From the NCBI GenBank assembly GCA_027485915.1, contig JAIXQA010000001.1, positions 124,001 to 188,000 on the forward strand: a stretch of DNA of 64,000 nucleotides, read 5' to 3'. This DNA is from Alphaproteobacteria bacterium (lineage in GTDB: Bacteria > Pseudomonadota > Alphaproteobacteria > Caulobacterales > Aquidulcibacteraceae). Positions 2,484 to 13,893 of the stretch are shown in pieces (position 1 is the stretch's first letter; each line of letters begins with the position of its first letter). Both the position numbers and the translations under genes were made by a program. The notes under the pieces are model-generated. The model was not told the origin of the DNA. It ran no database searches and saw only the letters and a program-made list of their open reading frames with translations.

Positions 2484-2870
2484 ATGCTTTTTTTGTTCAA
2501 TGACCGCGTTTTGATGATAACTGGCAACGCCGATGTAGTGATCAACGCAGGCATTCCAGCAGCGGCGGTCGCTCGCTATACATTGAATGATTCCATTTTG
2601 GCTGTTCAGACCGCTATCATGGAAATGCCGAACCTCGCGTCGGAGGCCCCGCAAAAAGCTGCAGCCTTAGCTTGGCTAATTGCCAGCCGCAGCGACGCCA
2701 ATGCAATCTTGTTTATTGCGCCACCAAAGTGTCGGCGTCCGCAAGAAGTTGGTTTCCGGTTGGCGACAGTCTCCTTGACGACTTTGGGCAGTCTTAAAGC
2801 TCAACAAGATGCGGGGCGCTTGACTTCGGGAATCATCAATACCTCCGTCTGGCAATCTGTCGCCGCCTAG
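2484..2870 (+). CDS. Small protein of unknown function
   Basis: This is a 128-residue protein. The start at 2484 is chosen because GGAGA (2472-2476) lies seven bases upstream; an in-frame start at 2457 lacks such a site. The sequence looks like a compact alpha/beta fold (MLFLFNDRVLMITGNADVVI at the N-terminus, NAILFIAPP in the middle) with no signal peptide or membrane segment. I do not recognise the family. It lies between a DUF1491 gene and prfC, about 130 bases before the latter. Confidence 0.6.
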   Translation: MLFLFNDRVLMITGNADVVINAGIPAAAVARYTLNDSILAVQTAIMEMPNLASEAPQKAAALAWLIASRSDANAILFIAPPKCRRPQEVGFRLATVSLTTLGSLKAQQDAGRLTSGIINTSVWQSVAA

Positions 2871-3001
2871 GTTTCGGGCAAGCGAACCTATTGCTCTAAG
2901 GCCTTTAATTGTGACGAGGCCTCAGCTAGATGAAGGGGTCAAGGGCTTGAGCATTCAGGTCATTCCTCCGTTCATCCATTCGTCTTAGTCAGGCCTAAAT
3001 C

Positions 3002-4606
3002 ATGTCAGCCGAACTCGCGCGGGAAGTTAAGCGCCGTCGCACCTTTGCCATCATTTCTCACCCTGACGCCGGCAAAACGACGCTGACTGAAAATCTCTTG
3101 CTCATGGGCGGCGCAATTCGCGCTGCAGGGGCGGTCCGTGCACGCGGCGAACAGCGCCGGACGCGTTCAGACTGGATGAAGATCGAACGCGAGCGTGGCA
3201 TCTCTGTTTCGGCTTCGGTTATGACGTTCGAACATGATGACTGTATCATCAATCTCTTGGACACACCGGGCCACGAGGATTTCTCAGAAGACACGTATCG
3301 CACGCTGACCGCAGCAGACTCTGCCGTCATGGTCTTGGATGCCGCAAAAGGGATTGAACCGCAGACGTTAAAGCTATTCGAGGTCTGCAGATTGCGCGAT
3401 ATCCCAATCCTAACTTTCATCAATAAGATGGACCGGGAAGCCCAGGATCCAATGGAGTTGTTGGATGAAGTAGCATCAAAGCTCGCACTCGATCCAGCTC
3501 CCATCTTTTGGCCGCAAGGATCAGGGAATCGTTTCCGCGGCATGGTGGACTTGCGCAACAACCGCTTCACCGTGTTCCGTCGCCCTCAAGTGGGCGATAC
3601 GGGACCACTGGTGCATGACGCCATCGATTTGTCCTCTAAAGAGATCGCAGAGGTTTTGAGCCAAGCAGAGATGGACGAATTGCGCGGTTCTGCTGAGCTT
3701 GTGCAAGGTGGTTATCCAGCTTTTGACCTAGAATCCTACCGCGAGGGGCACATGACGCCAGTCTTCTTTGGCTCTGCACTTCGACAGTTTGGTGTGCGCG
3801 AATTGCTGGACGGGTTGCGCGACTATGCGCCGTCGCCACGTGACCAAAAAGCGATGGACAAAGGGGCGGCGACCCAAATCCAAGCAGATCGAGATGAAGT
3901 GACTGGCTTTGTCTTTAAAATTCAGGCCAATATGGACCCCGCCCATCGTGATCGTGTTGCCATGGTGCGTTTGGCATCAGGTAAATTCCAGCGCGGCATG
4001 CGTTTGAAGACCGGGTCGGGCAAACAGATCGGCGTCCATGCGCCGCTCATGTTTGTTGGCCAAGACCGCGAAATCACTGACGAGGCTTGGGCCGGAGATG
4101 TGATTGGTGTCCCAAACCATGGCGTACTGCGCGTTGGCGACAGTCTGTCTGAGACCGGCCAAGTTAAGTTTGCCGGTATTCCAAACTTTGCTCCTGAGAT
4201 ATTGCGCCGCGCATCCGTCAAAGATCCCCTTAAAGCTAAGCACTTGAAAAAGGCACTTGAGTCTTTGGCTGAAGAAGGGGTGACCCAGTTATTCCGTCCA
4301 CATTTCGGCTCGGACTTGATTGTTGGTGCCGTTGGCCCTTTGCAGTTCGATGTGTTGGTGGAGCGCTTAGCGGCTGAATATGGGCTCCAGGTGGTTTTTG
4401 AGACCTGCTCCTTTAATGGAGTCCGCTGGATCGCGGCTGATACGGCTGCCGATCTTGAACAATTTGCCGATCGCAATCGTGCGGGTATGGGAACGGACCT
4501 AGATGGTGCAGAGGTCTTCTTGGCAAAAAATGCTTGGGAAATCGGCTATGTCGCTGAAAAATTTCCTAAAATCCGCTTCACCAATGTGCGTGAGCGCATG
4601 ATTTAG
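3002..4606 (+). CDS. prfC: Peptide chain release factor 3
   Basis: RF3 is the translational GTPase that removes RF1 or RF2 from the ribosome after peptide release. The 534-residue length fits the family. GTPase motifs are present in order: P-loop HPDAGKTTLTE (G1), the switch region with RGISVSASV, DTPGHEDFS (G3) and NKMD (G4), followed by the beta-barrel domain 2 and the RF3 C-terminal domain (PLQFDVLVERL). The gene is convergent with the DUF2336 gene, 43 bases away; a weak TTTTCG/CGAAAA stem around 4617-4637 lies between them. Confidence 0.97.
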   Translation: MSAELAREVKRRRTFAIISHPDAGKTTLTENLLLMGGAIRAAGAVRARGEQRRTRSDWMKIERERGISVSASVMTFEHDDCIINLLDTPGHEDFSEDTYRTLTAADSAVMVLDAAKGIEPQTLKLFEVCRLRDIPILTFINKMDREAQDPMELLDEVASKLALDPAPIFWPQGSGNRFRGMVDLRNNRFTVFRRPQVGDTGPLVHDAIDLSSKEIAEVLSQAEMDELRGSAELVQGGYPAFDLESYREGHMTPVFFGSALRQFGVRELLDGLRDYAPSPRDQKAMDKGAATQIQADRDEVTGFVFKIQANMDPAHRDRVAMVRLASGKFQRGMRLKTGSGKQIGVHAPLMFVGQDREITDEAWAGDVIGVPNHGVLRVGDSLSETGQVKFAGIPNFAPEILRRASVKDPLKAKHLKKALESLAEEGVTQLFRPHFGSDLIVGAVGPLQFDVLVERLAAEYGLQVVFETCSFNGVRWIAADTAADLEQFADRNRAGMGTDLDGAEVFLAKNAWEIGYVAEKFPKIRFTNVRERMI

Positions 4607-4649
4607 CCATGCTTGTTTTCGCGGATTAAACGAAAAGGGCTTGGACGCT

Positions 4650-5738
4650 TTAGGCTGCTTGGGCCGATACATTGGCGCGCAAACGCAGGAAACGCAGTGC
4701 GCGTTGGGCTGCCTCTGGCGGCACATCATTATACATATTGCCAAGAACTTGGGCTTGACCCATGCCATCGTTACCCAGCACCAATACTGCTATGGTCACG
4801 AACAAGGCGCGATCAAAATTGGCAGCACGGCATACCATGGCCATGGTATCGATATCTTTCTTCTCAAATAGCAATGCTGTCTGATAGAAATCGAGGCCTG
4901 TAAAATCGCCAAAGGCGATCATGAACTTGGTGGATTCCTGATTGCGCCACAGGGTCGGCAACATGGCGCGATTAATCGCATTGGCTGCCTTTTGTTTGGT
5001 GTATTCGCGGTGCACCACTTCGAAATCTGAAGGCAAGGTGCCATTCACAACTGCAACGCGGGTCTGCGCCCGGCGCATCGCGCGCTCGACTTCTTCTTCT
5101 GTGAACTCTGAATTTCGCTCTAGGATTTCACGCCGCATTGGGCCTTCCACAATCGTATAGAGCCGGTTCAAATGTTCGGGCGAAATGACTTTGCGGTCCG
5201 CGATTGGGCGATGCAATTCGGGATTTTTGGCTGCACGATCCACAATCTTGTCGAAGGTCTCGTCTGATACCTTTGCCGTTTGGTTGCTGACCAAAGATGC
5301 GACAACACGATCATCGCCGTGCGAAACCAAAGCTTCAGATAGTTCCTCGCCCACATCTGGGCGCTGGGTCACAACCATTTGGTGGGCATGACCGCGGGTT
5401 TCAACCACGCGAATTAGGTCGTCTTGGGTCAGCGAAGTCGATCTGCGCAAAATGGGGCCTGCAATGCCAATCTCTTCATCGCTTGCCATCATCACCGCTA
5501 GACTGCGCGGTGCTTCGCCACCAGCAAATCGTTGGGCCAACTCTTTGCGAACTTCATTGTCCAATTCATAAGCTACTTTTGCGATTAAATCGCCAAAAAG
5601 CTTGGTTTCGACTGGGCTTTGATTGTCCTGAGAGTCGAAGAACAAATCGGTGACTTCATTGAGCAGCACGCGACGTTTTTCGCTGGAGCTCTCGCCCGCA
5701 ACCTCTAGTAGCTTAGCGTATCTTTCGCCAACTTGCAT
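4650..5738 (-). CDS. DUF2336 domain-containing protein
   Basis: The 362-residue protein resembles the DUF2336 family of alphaproteobacteria, made of repeated short helical units similar to HEAT repeats. Examples are AYELDNEVRKELAQRFA, IGIAGPILRRSTSLTQDDL and DDRVVASLVSNQTAKVSDE. It has no signal peptide, membrane segment or catalytic motif and is probably a cytoplasmic scaffold. The molecular role is not established. It lies 80 bases downstream of the PAN-domain gene on the same strand, so the two could share a transcript. Confidence 0.8.
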   Translation of the reverse strand: MQVGERYAKLLEVAGESSSEKRRVLLNEVTDLFFDSQDNQSPVETKLFGDLIAKVAYELDNEVRKELAQRFAGGEAPRSLAVMMASDEEIGIAGPILRRSTSLTQDDLIRVVETRGHAHQMVVTQRPDVGEELSEALVSHGDDRVVASLVSNQTAKVSDETFDKIVDRAAKNPELHRPIADRKVISPEHLNRLYTIVEGPMRREILERNSEFTEEEVERAMRRAQTRVAVVNGTLPSDFEVVHREYTKQKAANAINRAMLPTLWRNQESTKFMIAFGDFTGLDFYQTALLFEKKDIDTMAMVCRAANFDRALFVTIAVLVLGNDGMGQAQVLGNMYNDVPPEAAQRALRFLRLRANVSAQAA

Positions 5739-7120: not shown

Positions 7121-8953
7121 TTAGGCGCTTGATGACAGAGTTTCTTTGAGTTCCAGTAGCGTCAGCCACTCATCTTCGCTTGCCTGCAGCTGTGCCCGCA
7201 CTTGTACGGCCTGCGTTGATGTCCTTTCAAATCGTGTTGGATCGCGACTGTAGAGATTTGGGTCGTTCAATGTTTTTTCCAATTGGGCGATTTGGGCTTC
7301 TAGCTTGGGGATGAGACCTTCTAATTCGCCTAAGCGCCGCTCGTCTTTATAGGAGAGCTTTTTGGCGGGCACTTTCGCCGCCGGCTCTGCTGCGGGAGCT
7401 GAAGTTGGTTTGGGCTTGGAAGCCTGTTGATGACCCAAAATTGGGATGCCCTGCCTTACAAGATCCGTCCAACCGCCGGGCGTCTCGATCCAAGTGCCGT
7501 CGCCGCGTGGTGCCAAGGTGGCCGTCACGACTCCATCGAGAAAGGCCCGATCGTGGCTAACCAGCAGAACCGTGCCATCATATTCGGCCAGCATATCCTC
7601 TAGAACATCCAAGGTTTCCATGTCCAAGTCATTGGTCGGCTCGTCCAGCACCAAAACATTGGAAGGTTTAGCAAGCGCCAAAGCCAAGAGCACACGGTTG
7701 CGTTCGCCGCCACTGAATGAACCGACTGGCTGGCGAAGATGCCGGCTGTCGAACAAAAAGTCTTTGGCATAGGCCGCGACGTGCTTTGGACGTTCGCGCA
7801 CCATGATCTGATCACCTCCAGCCGGAGCAAACGTGTCCCACAAGGTTGCTTTTGGGTCGAGGGCGGCACGCGACTGGTCTAGATAGGCGATGGTGAGGTT
7901 CTTGCCCATGCGGGTTGTTCCCGCATCTGGCTCCAAGCTCCCAACCAGCATTTTGATCAAAGTGGATTTGCCCACCCCATTGGGCCCTACAATGCCGAGG
8001 CGATCACCGCGCACAATGCGCAGATCGAGGTTCTTAATAATGTCGCCTCGGCCCTCGAAGCCTTTTGAAACGCCCTTGGCCTCGAAGATAAGTTTGCCCG
8101 AAGTACTGCCGGTGTCGGCCTGAAGTGCGGCGGTGTCTTTACGGACGAGGGCCGCCTGACCTTTACGGGCTTCACGCATATCCATCAAACGGCGGAGGCG
8201 GCCTTCATTGCGGGTGCGCCGGGCCGTTACGCCACGCGCCAACCAGCGGGCTTCATCTTCAAGAGTTTTGTCGAGCTTTTCCAATGCTTTGCGGTCTTGC
8301 TCTTCGATACTGGCTGCCCAAGGTTCAAACTTCGAGAACGGGGCATCTAATCGGCGGACCACGCCATTGCGCAGCCAGAGGCATGAGGTGGAGATCGCAG
8401 ACAGGAAGGCGCGATCGTGGCTAACGACCAAAACGGCACCTGAAAACTGCTTCAGGCGGCGCTCAAGTTCCTCTATGGCAGCAATATCAAGGTGGTTAGT
8501 CGGCTCATCCAGCATTAAGAGGTCGGGGTCGGCAGCTAACGCGCGGGCAAGGGAAGCCCGACGTGCTTCTCCGCCAGACATGCCAGCAACTGGGCGATCA
8601 GGGGATAGGCCAAAGCTATGGAGTTCCGCTGCTGCGGCAGCTAAGCGGGCGGCTTCGTCCCGGTCGTGCGGCACATCTTGTGCCGCCCATTCTAAGAGAC
8701 TTGATGCACCGCTAAAGTCAGGTTCTTGGGTCTGGGTTGCAGCATGGGTGCCGTTAGACACAACGCGCTCGCCCGAGTCATAGTCAAGCTGGCCCGCAAG
8801 CACCGCCATCAAAGTCGACTTGCCAGCACCATTGGCCCCGACCAGTGCCGCCCGCTCGCCACGGCGCAACGTGAGGTCGACCCCAGAAAACACAGGGGCA
8901 CCACCACGCTTCAGCTCAATATCTTTGAGTTGGATGACAATATCTCGGCTCAT
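7121..8953 (-). CDS. uup: ABC-F family ATPase, Uup type
   Basis: This 610-residue soluble protein has two ABC nucleotide-binding domains: Walker A GANGAGKST and GPNGVGKST; signatures MSGGEARRA and FSGGERNRV; Walker B LLMLDEPTNHLD and VLVLDEPTNDLD. There are no membrane segments. After a Pro/Ala/Lys linker comes a coiled-coil C-terminal domain (KKLSYKDERRLGELEGL onward), as in Uup. ABC-F proteins act on the ribosome or on DNA-linked processes rather than as transporters. The start at 8953 (MSRDIVIQL) is chosen over an upstream in-frame codon at 9013, whose extra 20 residues look non-coding. It is divergent from the amidohydrolase pair. Confidence 0.92.
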   Translation of the reverse strand: MSRDIVIQLKDIELKRGGAPVFSGVDLTLRRGERAALVGANGAGKSTLMAVLAGQLDYDSGERVVSNGTHAATQTQEPDFSGASSLLEWAAQDVPHDRDEAARLAAAAAELHSFGLSPDRPVAGMSGGEARRASLARALAADPDLLMLDEPTNHLDIAAIEELERRLKQFSGAVLVVSHDRAFLSAISTSCLWLRNGVVRRLDAPFSKFEPWAASIEEQDRKALEKLDKTLEDEARWLARGVTARRTRNEGRLRRLMDMREARKGQAALVRKDTAALQADTGSTSGKLIFEAKGVSKGFEGRGDIIKNLDLRIVRGDRLGIVGPNGVGKSTLIKMLVGSLEPDAGTTRMGKNLTIAYLDQSRAALDPKATLWDTFAPAGGDQIMVRERPKHVAAYAKDFLFDSRHLRQPVGSFSGGERNRVLLALALAKPSNVLVLDEPTNDLDMETLDVLEDMLAEYDGTVLLVSHDRAFLDGVVTATLAPRGDGTWIETPGGWTDLVRQGIPILGHQQASKPKPTSAPAAEPAAKVPAKKLSYKDERRLGELEGLIPKLEAQIAQLEKTLNDPNLYSRDPTRFERTSTQAVQVRAQLQASEDEWLTLLELKETLSSSA

Positions 8954-9076: not shown

Positions 9077-10591
9077 ATGAACATCGTCAGCCAGAAAGCA
9101 ATTGCCTTGTCTCTGCGTCACTCCATCCTTTCCGCCTCGGCCTTGGCTTTGGCCTTCTCTGTCACTCTGGTAGCCGGATGCGCGACAACTTTGTCCGCAC
9201 AACCTGCTGCGGTGCCAGGTCCTGAATCTGCAGCCAAGCCAAAGCCTGCGCCAAAGCCCTTGGCCAAGGGGATGGATAGCAATGCTGCGCTCGACCCGTT
9301 TCCATCAACTTACAAGCCACTATTTGGTGTAACGACAGCGATTGTCGGGGCCACAATCCTGACTGCAGCTGGCAATGAGATTGAGAATGGCACGATCGTC
9401 TTCTCAGAAGGCAAGATTGTTGCGGTCGGCAAGGATGTCGCCATCCCAGACGGCGCAAAGCGCGTGGATGGGCGCGGCAAATTTGTTACCCCCGGCATTA
9501 TCGACATTCACTCCCACTTGGGCGTCTATCCCAGCCCCGGGGTGCAAGCTAATTCCGACGGCAATGAAGCCACCGACCCTAATACAGCCGAGGTTTGGGC
9601 CGAGCATTCAATTTGGCCACAAGACCCAGGTTTTAACCGCGCGCGCGAAGGTGGGGTCACCAGCTTAATGATCTTGCCCGGTTCTGCCAATTTGTTTGGT
9701 GGTCGCTCCGTAACCTTGAAAAACGTGCCCGCGGTTACCCAACAGGGCATGAAGTTTCCGGGCGCACCCTATGGTCTGAAGATGGCCTGTGGCGAGAATC
9801 CAAAGCGCGTTTACGGTTCACGCTCGCGCGCGCCTTCGACCCGGATGGGCAATATCGCCGTTGCACGGCGCGCGTGGATCGATGCAGCAGACTATAATCG
9901 CAAATGGGCTGACTATCGGGCTAAAGTGGCGGCAGGGGAATCGGCGGCCGATCCGCCCAAGCGCGACCTAAAACTGGAGACGCTGTCTGGCGTGCTCAAT
10001 GGCGATATTCTCGTTCAAAACCATTGCTATCGCGCCGATGAAATGGCGCTAATGATCGATATGGCCAAGGAATTTGGCTATAAAATTACCACGTTCCACC
10101 ATTCGTCAGAGGCCTATAAGCTCGCCCCAGTTTTGAAAGAAGCTGATATATGTTCAGCAACATGGGCTGATTGGCAGGGCTTTAAGATGGAATCTTTGGA
10201 CGGGATTGCCGAAAATGCGGGAATTCTTCAGGCCTATGGTGCCTGCACCATTATCCATTCTGATGATGCCACTATGATTCAGCACCTTAATCAGGAAGCC
10301 GCTTTGGCGATGGGGGCAGCTGCCCGCGCTGGAATTCCGGTATCTCGCTTAGATGCGATTAAATGGATCACTGCCAATCCAGCGCGCGCCATGGGCATCG
10401 CGTCTAAGACGGGTTCTTTGGAAGTTGGCAAGATGGCTGACATCGTGCTGTGGGACCGTGATCCCTTCTCGACTTATGCCCTTGCCCAAACCGTCTATGT
10501 TGACGGCGGCATCGCCTATGACCGTCATGACCCGGCCACCCATGCTCGGTCCGACTTTGACCTTGGTCGCCCCAGCTTGGAGCAAAAATAA
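9077..10591 (+). CDS. Amidohydrolase-family lipoprotein with intact metal site
   Basis: The 504-residue protein starts with a long signal sequence and a lipobox LVAGC, Cys35 being the likely lipidated residue; a Pro/Lys-rich tether follows. The rest is an amidohydrolase (imidazolonepropionase-like TIM barrel): GKFVTPGIIDIHSHLG carries the HxH metal ligands (H145, H147), further histidines lie in TTFHHSSEA, and IIHSDDATM near the end supplies the catalytic Asp. It should hydrolyse a cyclic amide or peptide-like substrate outside the cytoplasm; the substrate is unknown. The stop codon overlaps the next start (TAATG at 10589-10593), which implies translational coupling with the paralogous second gene. 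Confidence 0.88.
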   Translation: MNIVSQKAIALSLRHSILSASALALAFSVTLVAGCATTLSAQPAAVPGPESAAKPKPAPKPLAKGMDSNAALDPFPSTYKPLFGVTTAIVGATILTAAGNEIENGTIVFSEGKIVAVGKDVAIPDGAKRVDGRGKFVTPGIIDIHSHLGVYPSPGVQANSDGNEATDPNTAEVWAEHSIWPQDPGFNRAREGGVTSLMILPGSANLFGGRSVTLKNVPAVTQQGMKFPGAPYGLKMACGENPKRVYGSRSRAPSTRMGNIAVARRAWIDAADYNRKWADYRAKVAAGESAADPPKRDLKLETLSGVLNGDILVQNHCYRADEMALMIDMAKEFGYKITTFHHSSEAYKLAPVLKEADICSATWADWQGFKMESLDGIAENAGILQAYGACTIIHSDDATMIQHLNQEAALAMGAAARAGIPVSRLDAIKWITANPARAMGIASKTGSLEVGKMADIVLWDRDPFSTYALAQTVYVDGGIAYDRHDPATHARSDFDLGRPSLEQK

Positions 10592-11940
10592 TGAAACCCG
10601 TTGCTCTTGCTCTCGCTTTTGCCGTTTCAGCCCCCGCACTCGCTCTCGCTGAACCCATCGCCATCATTAATGCCAAGATCGAAACCGTGGGCCCTGCTGG
10701 AACACTTTCGGCTGCGACACTTGTGATGGACAAGGGCAAGATTGTCGCCGTGGGCCCTTCCGTTGCCATTCCTAAAGGCGCGCAAATCATTGACGCCAAA
10801 GGTGCGGTGGTCACGCCCGGTTTAGTGGCCGCCACTACAAGTCTTGGCATCTCAGAGATTGAACAAGTGCCCTCAACGCGCGATGATGGGGCGGGCGGCC
10901 AAATTGGGGCAGCCTTTAATCCAGCTGCAGGGGTCAATCCTGATGCGCCAACGATTAGACTGGCGCGTCTAAACGGCTTGACGCGGGCCTTCCTAACCCC
11001 CGTTGCGGGTCGTTCTGGCAATGGTGCTCATGCCCATGACGATAGTGCCTTTGAAACGGCAGGCGGCCATGAACAAGATGATCCAACCTTGTTTGCTGGC
11101 CAAAGTATTGGCATCAACCTCTCGGCCAATTCACCTGACCTGATCTTTAGGATCAATGCAGGCATGGTGCTGGAATTTGGCGAGTCGGCAGCTGCGGCGG
11201 CGGGTGGGTCGCGTGGCGCGTCTTTGATCATTCTCAAACGCGTCTTGGCCGATGTGCGCCATTTTGCGGCCAATCGCGCCTTATATGATAAGGGCGAGGG
11301 GCGAGACTTGATGGTCAGCCGCTTAGATCTGGAAGCGTTGGTACCTGTGGTGCAAGGCAAGTCACCCCTCTTGATCCGGGTGTCGAGCGCCAATGATATC
11401 CGCCAAGTTCTGAAGCTGGCGAAAGAAGAAAAGCTATCCGTGGTTTTGGAAGGGGCCGAGGAAGGCTGGCGCGTTGCGTCTGAACTGGCCGCGGCCAAAG
11501 TGCCCGTCATTATCGACAGCCAAGCCGCTCTTCCTGCAAGCTTTGAGACACTGGGCACGCATTTGCGCAATGCCCAAATTCTCGATCAGGCAGGCGTTCA
11601 GGTCTCGATTATGGGCAGCCGCGATTACAATAATCTGCGCCAAAGCCGGATGAATGCAGGCACCGCTGTGGCTCATGGCTTGCCTTACCAAGCAGCATTG
11701 GCCGCCATCACCTTGAATCCGGCCAAGATTTGGGGGGCTGATAAAGAGATTGGCTCAATTGAAGCGGGCAAAGCTGCCGATGTCGTCATCTGGTCAGGTG
11801 ATCCATTAGAGGGTCAAAGCTATCCAACTGCGGTTTATATCGCAGGCCAAGCCCAACCCATGACCAGCCGCTCGACCGAACTCGCCGCCCGCTATAAGCC
11901 GAGCGCTGACGGAATCGCACGGCCGGCCTATCGGAATTAG
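10591..11940 (+). CDS. Amidohydrolase-like exported protein lacking metal ligands
   Basis: The protein has 449 residues with a Sec signal peptide (MKPVALALAFAVSAPALALA). It is homologous to the preceding gene: compare IVAVGPSVAIPKGAQIIDA with IVAVGKDVAIPDGAKRVDG, and the C-terminal LNPAKIWGADKEIGSIEAGK with the matching part of the first protein. The position of the HxH motif reads TPGLVAATTSLG, and the later HSDD motif reads MGSRDYNNL. The metal-binding residues are therefore missing. It is probably a non-catalytic partner or regulator of the first protein, made in step through the TAATG overlap; this role is inference. Confidence 0.85.
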   Translation: MKPVALALAFAVSAPALALAEPIAIINAKIETVGPAGTLSAATLVMDKGKIVAVGPSVAIPKGAQIIDAKGAVVTPGLVAATTSLGISEIEQVPSTRDDGAGGQIGAAFNPAAGVNPDAPTIRLARLNGLTRAFLTPVAGRSGNGAHAHDDSAFETAGGHEQDDPTLFAGQSIGINLSANSPDLIFRINAGMVLEFGESAAAAAGGSRGASLIILKRVLADVRHFAANRALYDKGEGRDLMVSRLDLEALVPVVQGKSPLLIRVSSANDIRQVLKLAKEEKLSVVLEGAEEGWRVASELAAAKVPVIIDSQAALPASFETLGTHLRNAQILDQAGVQVSIMGSRDYNNLRQSRMNAGTAVAHGLPYQAALAAITLNPAKIWGADKEIGSIEAGKAADVVIWSGDPLEGQSYPTAVYIAGQAQPMTSRSTELAARYKPSADGIARPAYRN

Positions 11941-11961: not shown

Positions 11962-13893
11962 CTAGCGCACAGGCCGTGATCCCAAGCGGCCACCGCCCAT
12001 AGCTGCAGGGGCGGGGGTTGGTTTGGTGGGGCTTGATTTGCCGCGCGCCATTTTGCTGGCTTTGGGCTCTTCTTCGAACAATTCAGCCAGCTTATCGACA
12101 ATCGCGCCGCCCAATTGTTCGGCATCTACAATTGTCACAGCGCGACGATAATAGCGCGTCACATCATGGCCGATACCGATGGCGATTAGCTCCACTGGGC
12201 TATAGTCTTGGATCTTGGCGATGGTGTCGCGCAAATGGCGTTCCAAATAGGCTCCCGAATTGACCGACAAGGTGCTGTCATCCACGGGGGCACCGTCTGA
12301 AATCACCATCAGAATGCGGCGCTGTTCCGGCCGGGCCAGCAGGCGATCATGTGCCCAATCCAAGGCCTCGCCGTCGATATTTTCTTTGAGCAGGCCTTCG
12401 CGCATCATCAGGCCCAGATTGCGCCGCGCCCGCCGCCAAGGGGCATCCGCACTTTTATAAATGATGTGGCGCAGATCATTCAGGCGACCGGGATTGGCGG
12501 GCTTGCCCGCCTTCATCCAGCTATCGCGCGATTGGCCACCTTTCCAAGCCTTGGTGGTAAAGCCCAAAATCTCAGTCTTGACGCCGCAGCGTTCCAGCGT
12601 GCGGGCCAGAATATCGGCGCAAATGGCAGCAATCATAATGGGCCTACCGCGCATAGAGCCCGAGTTATCCAATAAAAGCGTCACCACGGTATCGCGGAAA
12701 TTGGTATCATCTTCCATCTTGAAGGTGAGCGGCGCCAAAGGCTCGGTCACCACGCGCGACAGGCGGGCGACATCGAGCACGCCTTCTTCCAGATCAAACT
12801 GCCAGCTGCGGTTTTGCTGGGCCATCAGGCGGCGCTGCAAGCGGTTCGCCAAGCGGCCGACAACGCCTTGAAGCTGGGTCAATTGGGCGTCGAGATAGCT
12901 GCGCAAGCGGGCCAATTCTTCCCCGTCACACAGATCTTCGGCACCCACCGTCTCGTCAAAGGCCTTGGTATAGATTTTATAGGCAAAGCCATCACCATCG
13001 CCCGGTTTGAAGTTGGGTCGGACGGGCGTGGTGCCTTCATCGACCTCACTGTCATCATCATCGGGAGCGTCACTATCATCGGCCTCGACGCGCACCTGCA
13101 CATCTTCCTGCTCGCTGCCTTGCGACTCCCCGCGCTGGGTGTCCTCTTGCTGCTCGCCGCCTTCTTCTTGCTGATCCTCATTCTGGCTGGGATCTGGCGG
13201 GGGCTGGTCGGCGCCATCTGGTTCTTCGCCATCCTCATCGGATGGATCAGGCTCTGCCCCCAATTCATCACCCAGATCGAGGTCGCGGATGAGGTCACGT
13301 GTGACTTCGGCAAAGGCCTTTTGATCGCCCAAGCGTTCGATCAAGCGATCAATCGTCTCGCCCGCTTTGGCCTGCACTTCATCGCGCCACAGATCGGCAA
13401 TACCGCGCCCGGATTCAGGCGGGGCAAGCCCGGTCAGGCGTTCGCGCAGCAAGAGGCCCAAGGCATCGGCCAAGGGTGCGGTCTGCCGGTCCATCATGCG
13501 GGCATAGCCCTTTTTCTCGCACGTCTCCACTAAAGCCGCTGTTAGGTTTTGTGCAACCCCTGGCATGGCCAAAGCGCCAATCGCCTCAATGCGGGCTTTT
13601 TCGGCCACTTCATACAGGGCACGCGCACGTGGACCCTCGGGCATAGCAGCATTGTGGGCAGCTAAATCATGGTGGGCGAGGCGCAGCGCGGCGGCATCGG
13701 CATGGCCGCGCAGACGCGAGACTTCTTGCTCACCCAAGGCGCGCGCCGGATGGGGCAAGCCAATGCGATTGCCCGACACACTTGGCCCATCGGCAGAGAA
13801 GCTCACCTCCACCTCCTCGGTACGCGACAACGCGCGCGCCGTATGGGTAATCACACGTTTGAAAACGTCTTGAGGGGTTTCTTTGCTCGCCAT
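11962..13893 (-). CDS. cobT: Cobaltochelatase subunit CobT
   Basis: CobT joins CobS and CobN in ATP-dependent cobalt insertion during aerobic cobalamin synthesis. The 643-residue protein shows the family layout: a helical N-terminal part, a very acidic linker (about residues 210-290, rich in Asp, Glu and Gln), and a C-terminal von Willebrand A domain with MIDAS motif DNSGS at 409-413, then [14 protein letters not shown]. Neither CobS nor CobN is in the window. A GGCCTGT/ACAGGCC stem (11954-11975) overlaps the stop codon and may help end transcription against the convergent amidohydrolase gene. Confidence 0.93.

Follow-up and report, generated by a model that had tools for sequence, protein, structure and literature searches.

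Pseudoenzymes that serve as subunits are known, and one of them is a dead amidohydrolase. The pseudo-dihydroorotase of Pseudomonas aeruginosa is inactive, yet it is needed for the assembly and activity of aspartate transcarbamoylase (ATCase), and in this PyrB-PyrC' system it is an obligate structural subunit with an amidohydrolase fold (PMC7053772). Among live enzymes, the secreted metalloBSH has the ligand set H, H, K, H, H, D, which was assigned by comparison with Caulobacter Cc2672 (PDB 3mtw) (PMC13081902). An amidohydrolase of Thermotoga maritima (PDB 3ooq) is the closest solved relative of both proteins described below; no papers naming it were found in the open-licence literature, judged by titles and the starts of abstracts. 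To our knowledge, neither Cc2672 nor metalloBSH has a dead partner. CRMP and other dihydropyrimidinase-like proteins, which are animal and cytosolic, have an amidohydrolase fold without enzyme activity and form oligomers, and we know of no operon that joins one of them to a live paralogue. As far as we searched, again by titles and abstract starts in the open-licence literature, there is no account of a live/dead amidohydrolase pair among the papers listed, and a conserved pair of this kind is not known within that scope.

The window analysed here, a stretch of 64,000 nucleotides from an alphaproteobacterium, carries a predicted live amidohydrolase gene (A) and a predicted dead paralogue (B) next to each other on the + strand, both with open reading frames. 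Gene A occupies 9107..10591, stop codon included, and gene B, whose product (P0002) has 449 aa, occupies 10591..11940. The sequence-only reading had started A at ATG 9077, which gives a product of 504 aa (P0001), and the residue numbers of A are counted from that codon. A start at TTG 9107 is more likely, because the codon at the place of ATG 9077 is not a start codon in any of the six relatives compared, all six have GTG or TTG at the equivalent of TTG 9107, and in one of them (L042) an in-frame stop separates the two candidate starts. The stop codon of A (TAA, 10589-10591) and the start codon of B (ATG, 10591-10593) share one base in the sequence TAATG (10589..10593). This overlap had been taken to imply a fixed stoichiometry; the shared base is there, but a stop-start overlap suggests coupled translation only, so that part of the claim is unsupported in this form. 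Neither promoter-like sites (2 vs 1.6 in shuffled sequences) nor terminator-like sites (1 vs 3.9) rise above shuffles. The flanking genes are both on the - strand: an ABC ATPase gene with two nucleotide-binding domains lies beyond A (7121-8953), and a CobT-like gene (Pfam CobT, CobT_C) lies beyond B (11962-13893).

The two proteins have export-type leaders of different kinds. A carries an LVAGC lipobox (9167..9181, with the Cys codon at 9179-9181) in addition to its HSH and HSDD motifs, in line with its earlier description as a lipoprotein with an intact metal site, and is thus predicted to be lipoprotein-like. B has a signal-peptide-like stretch without a lipobox, as judged by eye, and its predicted export by this route also stands. 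A loose pattern finds a lipobox-like motif near the N-terminus of 49/65 A proteins; the other 16, among them six fused ones, are without it. In B the same pattern matches 3/65 within about the first 32 residues, a rate that is not like for like with that of A because a longer stretch was scanned in A. From these leaders we infer that A may be lipidated and that both proteins are probably exported.

Both products match amidohydrolase profiles. A scores above the Pfam cut-offs with PF01979 (Amidohydro_1; 59.5 bits, cut-off 25) and PF07969 (Amidohydro_3; 59.1 bits, cut-off 29.7), and so does B (45.5 and 46.3 bits, respectively). A therefore has the profile of the superfamily, and B has its profile and predicted fold but lacks its metal ligand set. 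The earlier suggestion of an alignment with imidazolonepropionases led nowhere, given that the HutI model (NCBIfam TIGR01224) gives A 49.2 bits and B 46.7 bits, far below its cut-off of 298.15, and we reject this identity for both proteins. By sequence, 3ooq is the nearest solved structure for A (E 4e-65) and for B (E 5e-30); 3mtw, unlike 3ooq, has only weak sequence similarity to A (E 1.3e-08).

In a joint alignment, A has the whole two-metal ligand set HxH, K, H, H, D, namely H145-S-H147 (9509..9517), K235 (9779..9781), H316 (10022..10024), H342 (10100..10102) and D396 (10262..10264). K235 is present in all 57 complete A rows and stands where the bridging (carboxylated) lysine would be expected, a role assigned by analogy with PDB 3mtw and metalloBSH, whose ligand set is of the same kind and which is secreted, as A seems to be from its predicted leader (PMC13081902). 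Window B keeps none of the six ligands. H145 and H147 are replaced by T82 and S84 (in T82-T83-S84, 10834..10842), K235 by V193, H316 by R263, H342 by G288 (11452..11454) and D396 by S343 (11617..11619, where the alignment has gaps nearby). Glycine takes the place of H342 in 63/68 rows filed as B. The sequence-only reading had B without its metal site and with ATT at the place of HSH; the first part is borne out, and the loss spans all six ligands, but the residues at the HSH place are T82-T83-S84.

The same division runs through the homologues. All six ligands are kept in 57/57 complete A rows (the broken rows of loci L135 and L139 are left out, and the motifs readable in both are intact), in 6/6 second domains (A2) of a fused protein described below, and in 5/5 single enzymes, including the aligned part of 3ooq. 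Among 66 B rows (the 68 filed as B minus L104, a live paralogue, and L104b, its dead neighbour), 44 have lost all of the ligands, one is left in 19 rows and two are left in 3. Since every one of the 66 B rows has at most two of the six ligands while every complete A row has six, the loss is not due to chance, and B is probably unable to bind metals in its former two-metal site. B homologues with intact ligands, named beforehand as the result that would speak against such a loss, are absent from these 66 rows; the sole row filed as B with six ligands, L104, groups with the live proteins in the tree. As a separate observation on motif use, one simple HxH pattern matches 2/6 further amidohydrolase-like genes in this genome; because several relatives use other motifs, the figure has no value as a control and says nothing about how rare ligand loss is.

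The pairing is conserved in other genomes, a point that the sequence-only reading had put forward for testing. Of the named organisms in the scan, those nearest to this genome are Aquidulcibacter, a bacterium of the Hyphomonadaceae and a MAG that bears the name Maricaulis, with 92-96% identity over B. The family, class and phylum samples all include the window's own genome. B is matched in 52/60 genomes of the family sample at E <=0.001 (5 weakly, at E >1e-6, and 47 at E <1e-35) and in 11/240 genomes of the class sample, in one of which (L096) B opens the contig and the place of A is not visible. Across 349 Pseudomonadota genomes at E <=1e-30, A occurs in 51 and B in the same 51, with A directly upstream of B on the same strand in all of them. 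Both genes share a strand in 65/65 pair loci that were read, and their spacing is <=15 bases in 63 of these, the gaps in L135 and L139 being 187 and 252 bases. The genes overlap by 4 bases in 38/65 loci and by 1 base in 14/65 (52/65 together), a count that favours overlaps because B start codons were chosen nearest to the A stop. A 1076 aa frame of Thalassomonas (L043) matches B in parts only and was not counted.

Outside Pseudomonadota, only plasmid records and 3ooq were seen. Records of Nonomuraea, Acetoanaerobium, Monoglobus and Cytobacillus each have one matching place for both the A and the B query, and the proteins encoded there keep all six ligands. A plasmid of Hymenobacter volaticus (Bacteroidota; L142, 3281-7702) has broken short frames similar to the fused protein and, after it, to B; they may reflect decay or sequencing error, and with its frames broken this locus was kept out of the alignments.

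B shows the marks of a maintained protein. Its dN/dS is 0.035-0.039 and that of A is 0.036-0.047 (six within-genus comparisons each, at a high synonymous divergence, dS 0.8-1.4), and purifying selection acts on B as strongly as on A. The AlphaFold2 model of B has a pLDDT of 90.7 and a pTM of 0.90, and its best PDB match is again 3ooq, with a Z of 47.2 across 375 residues; the second-best entry reaches a Z of 26.5, and CRMP-type entries take ranks 43-47 among the listed fold matches. Given the low dN/dS and a model that matches 3ooq, B is being maintained, and its amidohydrolase fold is predicted with confidence. Over longer distances B is much more variable than A (mean entropy 2.04 vs 1.20 bits). 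The distances among A proteins and among B proteins at 57 loci correlate with r 0.63, uncorrected for shared species history, and the highest of 1000 permutations reaches 0.18, which agrees with co-evolution.

Each protein also ends in a motif of its own. The C-terminal tail SDFDLGR of A (10550..10570) is present in strict form in 50/57 A proteins and in none of the 63 B, 6 A2, 6 C (the first domain of the fused protein) and 5 single-enzyme rows. The tail R427-x3-L431-x2-R434-Y435 of B (11869..11895) is found in 54/63 B proteins and in none of the 57 A, 6 A2, 6 C and 5 single-enzyme rows. These counts leave out 5/68 B rows and rely on a small sample of single enzymes, in which the 3ooq sequence ends 7 residues early. 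In 3ooq, unlike in A and B, neither tail occurs within the portion that was aligned, residues 13-389 of a chain of 396.

Three architectures were found. The common form is A followed by B. In six loci (L118-L123) from Pseudomonadota outside the window's class, probably Gammaproteobacteria, a dead-live fusion of about 1000-1050 aa is followed by B; its first domain, C, has no ligands in 5/6 cases and one in 1/6, and its second domain is A2. In one genome of the class to which the window belongs, a normal pair is accompanied by a very divergent live-dead pair, L104 (G416:C1:1646000-1655000), with genes at 3042-4475 and 4496-5698 whose products keep 6/6 and 1/6 ligands, respectively. In a tree of 129 rows (13/142 near-duplicate or partial rows were left out), 58/60 rows filed as B group in a single clade with an SH-aLRT of 98, and the support is 99 for A, 100 for A2, 100 for C and 99 for the single enzymes. 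L104b sits on a long branch apart from the B clade, and L104 lies on the live side. No fusion of A with B was seen among the loci examined; two apparent cases (L084, 1010 aa; L086, 976 aa) were rejected, with A in another frame over the same stretch. A model of the L119 fusion, built from a 6-row alignment, was rejected as a proxy for the complex (pLDDT 45.7, pTM 0.30); this poor model has a strand-rich region between the two barrels.

We suspect, with a probability of about 0.7, that A and B form an exported obligate hetero-oligomer in which A is catalytic and B is a structural or regulatory pseudoenzyme. In this scenario, the two genes would encode one exported enzyme with two homologous subunits. 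A would supply a two-metal amidohydrolase site built from the His pair of strand 1, the bridging Lys, two more His and the Asp, and its lipidated Cys may anchor the enzyme to a membrane. B, with the same fold, would be the obligate partner of A and may take the place of one A copy in what was probably a homo-oligomer, with docking perhaps mediated by surfaces particular to each class, the conserved C-terminal tails among them. We infer the physical complex from the pairing, the overlap and the fusions, and along with it an activity of A and its dependence on B. An obligate role for a dead subunit can be compared with the pseudo-dihydroorotase, which like B has a dead amidohydrolase fold. PyrC' is unlike B in that its partner is a transcarbamoylase for pyrimidine synthesis (PMC7053772), whereas the partner of B is a live paralogue and both have export-type leaders.

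The hetero-oligomer is supported by the co-occurrence of the genes, the ligand pattern, the selection on B and its fold, the tails, the six fusions beside B and the distance correlation. Several observations count against it: 22/66 B rows still hold one or two original ligands, A2 is without the A tail, 16/65 A proteins have no lipobox-like motif and no A-B fusion was seen. B still follows the fusion in six loci, so not every lineage can be explained by a simple one-to-one dimer, and the far greater variability of B means that its interface with A would have to tolerate drift.

Of the alternatives, the one that fares best, though we consider it unlikely, is that B works apart from A as an exported binding or carrier protein whose old barrel pocket holds the substrate or product of A without a lasting complex. 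The retained fold of B and the export-type leaders on both proteins would suit such a role. The former ligand positions speak against it: five of the six have an entropy of 3.2-3.6 bits, well above the mean of 2.04 over 402 columns (9/68 B rows, including L104 and L104b, are left out of this table), and the sixth is a nearly fixed Gly. Such variability is unlike that of a conserved binding site, although a ligand that varies between lineages could be reconciled with it.

Slightly less probable is that B is an enzyme of a different chemistry, which either uses no metal or has its metal site in another part of the protein. The strong purifying selection on B could be read in this way, as could the 22/66 rows with one or two original ligand residues and the only two nearly invariant Asp residues, D98 and D404. 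In the 54-row B alignment, however, the only invariant residues are R126, G129, G170, A296, A378, G388 and G419, and no His, Cys or Glu is invariant or nearly so; ligands moved elsewhere, the other result named beforehand as speaking against the loss, are thus absent from this alignment. The high variability of five of the six former ligand positions speaks against a new active site common to the B proteins there.

An alignment error, with the ligands of B at other sequence positions, could be suspected from the gaps around the last ligand, but we consider it very improbable, given that the match of the B model to 3ooq extends across 375 residues, no gaps interrupt the alignment at the motifs of strands 1 and 6 and B has no alternative conserved set of His. 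Least probable of all, and already contradicted by the results, is a decaying duplicate retained only through linkage to A, which would fit the ligand loss and the long-distance variability of B but not a dN/dS of about 0.04 within the genus, the presence of B in all 51 sampled genomes with A, or its intact leader and frame.

Returning to the hetero-oligomer, the recurrence of a live-plus-dead pairing in many bacteria suggests an undescribed two-part enzyme. A broader version, to which we would give even odds, is that there is a widespread class of exported metallo-amidohydrolases in which each live barrel is obligately assembled with one dead barrel of the same superfamily (A with B) or with two (the C-A2 fusion with B). 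The division of labour would then predate the split of the sampled Pseudomonadota classes and would have been extended later in some of them by an extra dead domain.

The proposed enzyme would probably act outside the cytoplasm, on substrates such as small amides, dipeptides or N-acyl amino acids. In 9/65 pair loci (L092, L103, L106, L107, L127, L128, L129, L130 and L143, with Pfam PTR2 confirmed for L143), A is preceded on its own strand by a gene for a POT-type peptide transporter, at an estimated 95-210 bases from A in seven of them and at 540 and 962 bases in two, which gives weak support to a peptide-like substrate. The largest clusters in the common-neighbour search were shadow frames, and the transporter is the only neighbour that was used.

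Live and dead amidohydrolases side by side in Alphaproteobacteria and other classes of Pseudomonadota offer a tractable case from nature in which the need of an enzyme for a non-working copy can be studied. They also carry a warning for annotation: B is recorded in Qipengyuania as an "amidohydrolase family protein", and a sizeable group of proteins under this name is probably without amidohydrolase activity.

B lies between A and the CobT-like gene, and not beside pyrB or another aspartate transcarbamoylase gene as PyrC' does. The same genome has, at another locus (L151; G000:C63), two overlapping genes on the - strand (1585-2898 and 2867-3841), one aspartate transcarbamoylase-like and the other dihydroorotase-like with HVS in place of HxH, which is probably the known pseudo-dihydroorotase arrangement, as named from a reading of the sequence.
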